Part shown: piece by piece, positions 1,411 to 27,716 of the stretch | Layout of the letters: every line of letters starts with the position of its first letter | How positions within the stretch are numbered: the first letter of the stretch is position 1 | Source of the DNA: Dysgonamonadaceae bacterium | Lineage (GTDB): Bacteria; Bacteroidota; Bacteroidia; Bacteroidales; Azobacteroidaceae | DNA length: 33,682 bases | Assembly: GCA_031263685.1 (NCBI GenBank) | Contig: JAISFI010000294.1 | Location: 1-33,682 of the forward strand | Direction of reading: 5' to 3' | The notes under the pieces: model-generated | Told to the model about the DNA's origin: nothing | What the model saw: only the letters and a program-made list of their open reading frames with translations | Databases searched by the model: none | Made by a program: the position numbers and the translations under genes

Positions 1411-2148
1411 ATGTCAAAGAAATTTACATGGAAAGTCTGGCTGCTGCCAAACCTGCTGACCAAAGATGTGCACAACGACTACACTGCCGACGTATCTACC
1501 GCCGGCGAAACCAAACACAACGACGACATCGCGAAAGCCATCAAAGAAGAAGGCTCCGACCTCCAGATGGAAACCCTCATCGACGTCCTCAACCGCGGCG
1601 ACCGCTGGAAACGCCGGTTCCTGCTCGAAGGCACTTCCGTACAGGATGGCAACCTGCACCTGTCGCCTCGCGTAAAAGGCAACTGGGAAGGCACCGACCC
1701 CCACTATGACCCCAAAGATCACAAAATCACCCTCAACGCCATCCTCACTGCCGACCTGCGCAAAACCATCGAGGAAGAAGTCGGCGTCGAAGTCCTGGGC
1801 AAGAAAATCGACGGTGGCGCCTTCATCGGCCTGGTTACAGACGTGACTACCGGCAAGAAAGACGGTACCATCACCCCCGACGGCGACGTGATCATCACCG
1901 GCAATAAAATCAAAATCGACCCCGTTGGCGAAGAAGGCCTGGGCGTATTCTTTGTCGATGTCTACGGTACGGAAATACCCGTTACACACCCTTTTACGCA
2001 GAATGACCCGAAAAAAGTCGTATGCCGCATACCCATCCTGGCCGCAGGAGAATACACGCTGAAAATCGTAACGCAATTTTCCAACAGCGCCATATTGCTG
2101 AAAGCGCCACGCACCATTACCTATGAATTGCCACTGACGGTAGAATAA
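1411..2148 (+). CDS. HU-like DNA-binding domain / DUF4469-type protein
   Basis: 245 aa; N-terminus resembles Bacteroidota HU-like domain proteins, with a C-terminal Ig-like DUF4469-type region; strong C-ending codon bias. Confidence 0.7.
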   Translation: MSKKFTWKVWLLPNLLTKDVHNDYTADVSTAGETKHNDDIAKAIKEEGSDLQMETLIDVLNRGDRWKRRFLLEGTSVQDGNLHLSPRVKGNWEGTDPHYDPKDHKITLNAILTADLRKTIEEEVGVEVLGKKIDGGAFIGLVTDVTTGKKDGTITPDGDVIITGNKIKIDPVGEEGLGVFFVDVYGTEIPVTHPFTQNDPKKVVCRIPILAAGEYTLKIVTQFSNSAILLKAPRTITYELPLTVE

Positions 2149-25968: not shown

Positions 25969-26287
25969 ACGATTACTGTATTCACTGAGGATAAGCGTCA
26001 ACGCCCCGTCACTTGTTACATTACAAGCCGTACCGAAGCTGTCTTGAAGCCAGCAACAGCGCAATCGCCAGCAACCGCGAAGCATTACTGCCGAGTTGTG
26101 TGATAGATGGCGCAATAAATCCGATAATAATGAGCGGAATGGTAAACATGATGACGGCGCTCAACAGGTGCTGAACGGTCACCACTACTTGCATGACGCT
26201 TGCACCGGCAACAAGGCCGCCGGAGATGCCAACCAGCAAAGCGAGCGCCAAACGAAAAGGTAAACTGCGGAATATTTTTTTTATCAT
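25969..26287 (-). pseudogene. Remnant of a dicarboxylate/amino acid:cation symporter: N-terminal TM segments joined out of frame to a C-terminal fragment
   Basis: MIKKIFRSLPFRLALALLVGISGGLVAG...FTIPLIIIGFIAPSITQLGSNASRLLAIALLLA, then in another frame WLQDSFGTACNVTSDGALTLILSEYSNR. Confidence 0.75.
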
Positions 26288-26317
26288 ACTGTTGTTATTT
26301 GTTAAAAAAAAGGCGCT

Positions 26318-26519
26318 CCCTTGATTAAAGGGAATGCCCTCTCTTGATTGAAGCATCGAGGCTCGAACAGTCGATTCACCGAGGCTCGAACAGTCGATTC
26401 ACCGGCGGTGGACGATCAAATCATCGGCGGTGAACGATCGATTCACCGCCGGTGAACGATCAATTCACCGCCGGTGAACGATCAATTTGACGAGGCTCAC
26501 AACGATAAATTTCCAGACT
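26318..26519. repeat. Degenerate tandem array of about nine 22-23-bp dyad-bearing units
   Basis: Units at 26318, 26341, 26364, 26387 (23 bp) and 26410, 26432, 26454, 26476, 26498 (22 bp), e.g. gaacgatcaattcaccgccggt. Confidence 0.93.
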
Positions 26520-26542: not shown

Positions 26543-27019
26543 CTACCGGGCCTGCACCCGTTCCGGATGCCCTTGCCTGAATAATCTTTTCCGCGCCAAC
26601 TTCTCATATTGAGTACCAGGCAAGCCATAATTTACATACGGATAAATGCTGATGCCTCCACGGGGAGTAAAAATACCGGTGACTTCTATGTATTTGGGAG
26701 ACAGCAAACGGATGAGATCTTTCATGATGATGTTCACACAATCTTCATGAAAAGCCCCATGATTACGGAAACTGAAAAGATACAGTTTCAGACTTTTACT
26801 TTCCACCATCTTGACAGCAGGGATATAATCTATGTAAATGGTTGCGAAATCCGGCTGTCCCGTAATAGGACACAGACTGGTAAACTCCGGACAGTTAAAC
26901 CGTACCCAGTAATCATTTTCCGGATGCTTGTTGACGAATGTTTCCAGCACTTCGGGAGCATAATCCTGCCGGTACACCGTTTGTCCGCCTAATAAGGTGA
27001 GCGTTTCCTGTTCTTTCAT
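26543..27019 (-). CDS. queF: NADPH-dependent 7-cyano-7-deazaguanine reductase
   Basis: [43 protein letters not shown]; start at [12 protein letters not shown]. Confidence 0.95.
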
Positions 27020-27047
27020 ATCTTGCTGTTCAATGTTACTGTTTCCT

Positions 27048-27716
27048 TTAAATCCTTGTTTGCAAATACGCTTCCAGTCCATTCCGGCGCAGGGTGCAGG
27101 ATGGGCAATGTCCGCATCCGTCGGCTTTGACGCCATTGTAGCACGTCAAGGTTTCGTAACGGACAATATCGAAGACTCCCAACTCGTCGGCCAGCGCCCA
27201 TACCTCTTTCTTGTTTTTCCACATAAGAGGCGTATGGAAGATGAATTGCTCATCCATCGCCAGGTTGATGGTGACATTTGCGGAGCGTACAAACGTGTCC
27301 CGACAATCCGGATAACCGCTGTAGTCCGCTTCGGAAACGCCGGTCACAATATTTCGGATGCCGTGAGAACGGGCGACGACTGCCGCAAACGTCAGGAAAA
27401 ACAGGTTCCGTCCCGGTACGAATGTATTCGGATAGGAATCGTCCGGTTTTTCCTGATCCATGATGATTGTTCCATCTGTCAATGAGTTTGACGAAAGGTT
27501 GCCGATAACAGGAGCATCCAGCAACAGAAACGGCACCTGCGCTTTTGCGGCAATACTCCGGGCAATGTCCACTTCGATAGCATGTCGCTGTCCGTAAGTA
27601 AAGCATAGCGCCCGGACATTGTCGAAATGCTTCAGCGCCCAATATAGGCAGGTGGTAGAATCCTGTCCGCCGGAAAAGAGCACCAAAGCATCGTTATTTG
27701 ATTTATTTGTCAGCAT
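27048..27716 (-). CDS. queC: 7-cyano-7-deazaguanine synthase
   Basis: [19 protein letters not shown]; zinc cysteines [22 protein letters not shown]. Confidence 0.96.

Follow-up and report, generated by a model that had tools for sequence, protein, structure and literature searches.

An array of 22- and 23-bp dyad units downstream of queF in a Dysgonamonadaceae bacterium, and the linkage of similar arrays to HU-DUF4469 genes

Between the queF gene and a fragment of a symporter gene, a contig of a Dysgonamonadaceae bacterium carries a short head-to-tail repeat whose units contain inverted repeats, and the locus raises the question of what such an array is, how it came to lie there and which protein, if any, it serves. 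The window analysed here is the whole stretch of 33,682 nucleotides (contig JAISFI010000294.1, assembly GCA_031263685.1), to which all positions refer unless another sequence is named. Bacteroidales are dominant gut bacteria that encode many HU-like proteins of unknown function, and one family of these proteins proved to be relevant to the question.

The array is real. A repeat search of the window gave start-to-start spacings of 23, 22, 22 and 22, and TRF reported two blocks, one at 26357-26404 with 2.1 copies of a 23-bp unit (100% match, score 96), the other at 26397-26487 with 4.1 copies of a 22-bp unit (88% match, score 140). The best score in 1000 Markov shuffles of 26318-26519 was 57. 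The initial annotation, made from the letters alone, had placed a head-to-tail array here, between the queF stop (26543, minus strand) and a symporter remnant, and was right in both respects; its count of about nine units, however, is reduced to six regular units with one worn unit at each end. The features of the locus are as follows.

26543 to 27136, minus strand: queF, whose 3' untranslated region contains the array (Pfam QueF, E=1e-32)
26303 to 26334, minus strand: probable intrinsic terminator of queF, stem at 26316-26334 followed by a T-run (terminator scan)
26021 to 26356, minus strand: N-terminal fragment of a sodium:dicarboxylate symporter (Pfam SDF, 27.8 bits, just below the cut-off of 27.9)
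26343 to 26364, no strand: worn left-end unit, reading cttgattgaagcatcgaggctc (sequence reading)
26365 to 26498, no strand: the six regular units (repeat search, TRF, unit split)
26365 to 26387 and 26476 to 26498: units of 23 bp (unit split)
26388 to 26409, 26410 to 26431, 26432 to 26453 and 26454 to 26475: units of 22 bp (unit split)
26398 to 26478, no strand: dyad-bearing stretch (sequence and inverted repeats)
26499 to 26511, no strand: worn right end, reading acaacgataaatt, common to an array on contig C172 that lies behind an HU-like gene (alignment)

The regular units are of two types with a common 17-bp body, GAAC(GA/AG)TCRATTCAYCG. Type 1 ends in GCGGT, which brings the unit to 22 bp and completes the dyad TTCACC-GSC-GGTGAA, and type 2 ends in AGGCTC, which brings it to 23 bp. 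All dyads quoted in the initial annotation were found: the perfect TTCACC-GCC-GGTGAA at 26442-26456 and again at 26464-26478, and TTCACC-GGC-GGTGGA at 26398-26412. Adjacent units do share halves, as had been noticed, but since this sharing stems from two unit types with a common body, the array is, as its units read, a 22/23-bp block mosaic and not the product of smooth stepwise drift. A CRISPR array was rejected, the units following one another head to tail at a spacing of 22-23 with no unique spacers between them.

The hairpin TCCCTT-GATTA-AAGGGA, previously counted as unit 1 of the array, is a terminator-like site on the minus strand, where the sequence reads TTCCCTTTAATCAAGGGAG, followed by CGCCTTTTTT. 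It is the sole terminator-like site of the region and is placed correctly for queF; the placement is the chief argument for it, as the scan yields 1.4 such sites by chance. The combination of a G+C-rich stem and a T-run is confined to the hairpin at 26316-26334 and is absent from the repeat units. On the other side, the symporter fragment has a plausible start near 26288, outside the array.

Homologues of the array were sought in the source genome (3.99 Mb in 446 contigs, fragmented, with an estimated contamination of 6% and some contigs ending inside arrays), in 60 relatives and in 147 further Bacteroidota genomes. About five other sites were found in the source genome, on contigs C28, C172, C96 (both ends) and C140, and none in the relatives or the further Bacteroidota. 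The C28 array has the same order of unit types as the window array, with 94% identity over 145 bp, and shares CATCGAGGCTC with its worn left-end unit; the right end, GAGGCTCACAACGATAAA, recurs on C172. No match was found between any 400-bp flanks of the six homologous arrays. Because the order of units recurs on C28 and the right end on C172 between unrelated flanks, the array must have been copied as a block and did not grow from nothing at its present site. A decayed coding sequence, which the initial annotation had named as a refuting result, was not seen: neither period, 22 or 23, is divisible by three, and no homologous sequence occurs in the 60 relatives and 147 other genomes.

Several side observations concern these homologues and other arrays. 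C96 and C140 both begin, at position 1, in arrays of the same subtype that face each other, and one array of at least 15 units probably spans the gap between the two contigs; the end of C3 and the start of C272 also lie inside arrays. Two homologous arrays (L015:2361-2559 and L018:13883-14009) adjoin genes with a GH88 match, by chance or through a shared regulon.

The C172 array lies directly behind a gene for a protein with an HU-DNA_bdg and a DUF4469 domain (hereafter HU-DUF4469) and is the closest relative of the window array that is linked to such a gene. The window array itself, next to queF and the symporter fragment, is not 3' of one. The window does hold its own example elsewhere.

1411 to 2148, plus strand: HU-DUF4469 gene (Pfam PF14848, E=9.7e-21; PF14734, E=8.8e-22)
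2162 to 2291, no strand: array 1, a 23-bp dyad array beginning 14 bp past the stop of this gene (TRF)

A search of the source genome gave no further copies of array 1. A PF14848 search of the same genome gave 16 genes, 15 of which have a 3' tandem array with a period of 22-24; nearly all of these arrays follow the stop directly, and no two have the same sequence. Over the source genome and its relatives, such an array (mostly of period 23) follows 27 of 32 HU-DUF4469 genes, or 27 of the 30 that have a 3' flank, two of the five genes without an array being truncated by a contig end. The arrays typically begin 10-30 bp past the stop, and a 5' array was seen in only two genes. Among control ORFs of the source genome, 25 of 530 (~5%) have such an array (Fisher p=9e-27 against HU-DUF4469 genes). 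Gene calls were simple ORF calls, and HU genes that are related to one another do not count as independent observations, but the set spans widely differing identities, several genera and a second species, Parabacteroides distasonis, in which all five HU-DUF4469 genes, on records labelled as plasmids, have a 3' array. In 150 kb of annotated P. distasonis DNA, an array accompanies each of the three such genes, and roughly five more of this period lie elsewhere. Sequence differs between arrays near different HU-DUF4469 genes, whereas period, place and dyads are common to them. HU-DUF4469 genes and 3' arrays are thus linked, and of this linkage we are practically certain; the open-access literature searched gave no mention of DUF4469 and no account of a link between an HU-like gene and a tandem array.

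In one P. distasonis locus (L286, 2637-3363), HU and DUF4469 are annotated as two overlapping ORFs, an apparent frameshift, and the 3' array is still there. The P. distasonis records labelled as plasmids (NZ_OY725757.1, NZ_OY725834.1 and sister records) look like pieces of chromosome, because they contain rpoB, tuf, priA and ribosomal protein genes. The P. distasonis protein had no relative in a scan of viral contigs; two unannotated faecal 'phage' contigs contain an HU-DUF4469 gene without the usual adjacent array. Shorter HU-like proteins have a 3' array in 2 of 12 cases, counted by inspection in the same searches. Xylanibacter rodentium has 6.9 copies of a 22-bp unit upstream of an HU-HIG gene (L086:4543-5240), which may parallel the HU-DUF4469 link.

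The HU-linked arrays have an anatomy in common. Their mean best dyad arm is 5.6 bp, against 3.48 +/- 0.16 in column permutations. When the units within an array are compared with one another, 12% of comparisons differ in the arms and 30% at the other positions, a contrast reached in 0 of 300 permutations; the stem was chosen from consensus letters only, and the permutations were put through the same choice. A significant dyad is present in 15 of 27 single arrays, about half being without one. The arms are the least variable part between units of arrays of this kind, and change of the arms, which had been proposed as a general rule of their growth, does not hold as such a rule. Proteins that are 70-82% identical often have unrelated arrays, whereas a few close pairs share arms, and a co-evolution of protein and array was rejected, the overall correlation being weak (Mantel p=0.06). 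A hypervariable DNA-binding arm was not clearly seen among close HU relatives.

Arrays of similar period form a wider class. The initial annotation had suggested scanning intergenic DNA for more of them, and more were found, with periods of 20-23, in about 774 kb sampled from the source genome; part of this DNA was picked for holding arrays, and all survey samples are small. Intergenic tandem repeats in the sample have periods of 20-23 or multiples of these and almost none of 24-39, and the arrays are mostly unrelated to one another in sequence. Most of the others have neither an adjoining HU gene nor a sequence match to an HU-linked array, and arrays in general show no marked bias to 3' ends over divergent spacers. 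A set of 80 named Bacteroidales loci likewise shows a period peak at 21-22. Other orders of the class show it more weakly, and their signal at 21 may stem from A+T-rich 7-bp repeats; it is absent from 200 kb of E. coli and pSymB. In sampled Bacteroidota intergenic DNA, A+T-rich 7-bp repeats also produce peaks of repeat lag at 14 and 21; these repeats form a class apart from the 22-23-bp arrays.

One member of this wider class bears on how units are gained. Three Bacteroides/Phocaeicola genomes that are closely related to one another, those of Bacteroides caecigallinarum strains and a relative, have another 22-bp array in the orthologous queC-queF spacer, and it is exactly one unit longer or shorter at one end (L040 against L041/L080). 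This exact one-unit difference, and the identity or near-identity of neighbouring units, support the local duplication that had been proposed. Other arrays lie near queF as well: 12.7 copies of a 15-bp unit in the queC-queF interval of Phocaeicola intestinalis (L074:3786-3976), and two different 43-bp arrays behind queF in a Prevotella genome (L112:4492-4671 and L112:4996-5174), unrelated in sequence to the window array.

As the best explanation we propose, with a probability of roughly 45%, that the HU-type protein binds its neighbouring array as DNA and that the window array (26343-26511), whose type is normally found 3' of an HU-DUF4469 gene, is an orphan copy. By its Pfam match the protein contains an HU-type DNA-binding domain, and in line with other HU/IHF proteins it would be expected to form a dimer; the dimeric HU of E. 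coli favours cruciform or kinked, distorted DNA (PMC6907758). Such a dimer would bind the two-fold symmetric units of the array, about one per 22-23-bp unit, that is, per two helical turns, and a regular nucleoprotein stretch would form just downstream of the protein's own gene. A row of dimers on DNA fits the data, because dyads at two-turn spacing adjoin a gene of HU type, and recognition of structure fits because the geometry is constant while the sequence changes. Symmetry and spacing would be kept, leaving the sequence free to turn over between modules, with the arms within one array held alike; the arms could be alike because a specific half-site is kept or because slippage homogenises them. 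Orphan arrays may act as extra docking sites. The linkage, the long and little-varying arms, the equal numbers of G-T and A-C arm mismatches and the homology of the window array to the C172 array speak for this reading. Against it weigh the unrelated arrays beside proteins of 70-82% identity, the weak overall correlation of protein and array, a DNA-binding arm that is not clearly hypervariable among close HU relatives, the single arrays without a significant dyad, and the majority of other arrays in the source genome, which have neither an HU gene next to them nor a match to an HU-linked array. Binding, the dimer-per-unit stoichiometry and an effect on neighbouring genes or chromosome structure are all things that we infer.

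An unlikely, purely neutral account would have slippage, helped by hairpins of the nascent strand, make and turn over 22-bp arrays in non-coding DNA without any function, the 3' ends of HU-like genes being hot spots or permissive sites and the dyads arising by template switching between arms. The gain or loss of whole units in the queC-queF spacer, the rapid turnover of array sequence beside conserved proteins and the presence of same-period arrays where an HU gene is absent are all in keeping with it, but slippage alone leaves unexplained why 27 of 30 HU-DUF4469 genes, against ~5% of others, have an array, and why variation is lower in the arms than in loop and linker.

Two further accounts are improbable. 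In the first, the array would serve the upstream gene as its 3' untranslated region, and the series of hairpins into which it folds would terminate, protect or regulate the transcript, with HU perhaps binding it as RNA: the arrays do start 10-30 bp past the stop, the window array lies between queF and its terminator, and E. coli HU binds an RNA that a REP element encodes, naRNA4 (PMC6907758). Read on the sense RNA, however, arm mismatches comprise 49 G-U and 51 A-C, which is what constraint on the DNA and not on the sense RNA would be expected to give, and because the two are equal there is no sign of selection on a sense-strand hairpin, which was rejected on this count; similar arrays also lie between divergent genes, and Rfam families were rejected, with matches only at chance level, far below the gathering score. 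Slightly more improbable still is a dispersal of the arrays as MITE- or REP-like elements, with the orphan as an insertion. About six homologous arrays at unrelated sites would agree with this, as would the BrickBuilt element, likewise an intergenic minisatellite with a 23-nt unit, from a Bacteroidales species (PMC4596501). A MITE with shared ends was rejected, as the six arrays have no common leader, tail or terminal repeat, and the HU-linked arrays of different genes are unrelated in sequence, unlike one mobile family.

A bolder and rather doubtful reading is that HU-DUF4469 proteins, each paired with its 23-bp dyad array, make up many protein-DNA modules (at least 14 here) that exist side by side in one genome and are independent of one another, a new class of cis-linked nucleoprotein element in which geometry is fixed and sequence changes freely, with orphan arrays recruiting the protein to other loci. 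The linkage gives each HU-DUF4469 protein a candidate DNA target, which simple binding or deletion experiments in Parabacteroides could test. One relative has a solved structure, 4fmr, still named uncharacterised.

Four known systems invite comparison. The HU-HIG (Pfam PF18291) and related HU expansions of Bacteroidota, reportedly covered by a 2017 survey of Burroughs, Aravind and colleagues, belong to the same HU superfamily and are likewise lineage-specific, but we know of no described link between them and tandem arrays, and the short HU-like proteins seen here, unlike HU-DUF4469, mostly lack a 3' array. The BrickBuilt minisatellite-MITE of Porphyromonas gingivalis resembles the present arrays in its intergenic, head-to-tail repeats of ~23 nt, its Bacteroidales host, its about 19 dispersed, non-identical copies and the gain or loss of whole units between strains (PMC4596501). 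Its copies have a common leader, tail and IS5-type terminal inverted repeats, whereas the arrays here have no common flanks and the HU-linked ones have unrelated unit sequences; the parts of its description that were consulted report no adjoining HU-like gene (PMC4596501). The link between HU-type genes and arrays offers a frame for minisatellites like BrickBuilt, whose origin is unexplained. REPtrons, which combine RAYT genes with REP palindromes (PMC3733652), are similar in that a protein gene is flanked by its own palindromic repeats, with orphan copies elsewhere, but their protein is a Y1 tyrosine transposase, in place of which an HU-DNA_bdg and DUF4469 protein is found here, and the present arrays are tandem, one-sided (3') and fixed in period at 22-23 bp, and most of them have no dispersed copies. 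HU of E. coli, which acts with REP325/naRNA4 and prefers cruciform DNA, likewise pairs an HU protein with a palindromic repeat; there, gene and repeat are not adjacent and a genome has one HU pair (PMC6907758), whereas here at least 14 paralogues each have an array of their own.
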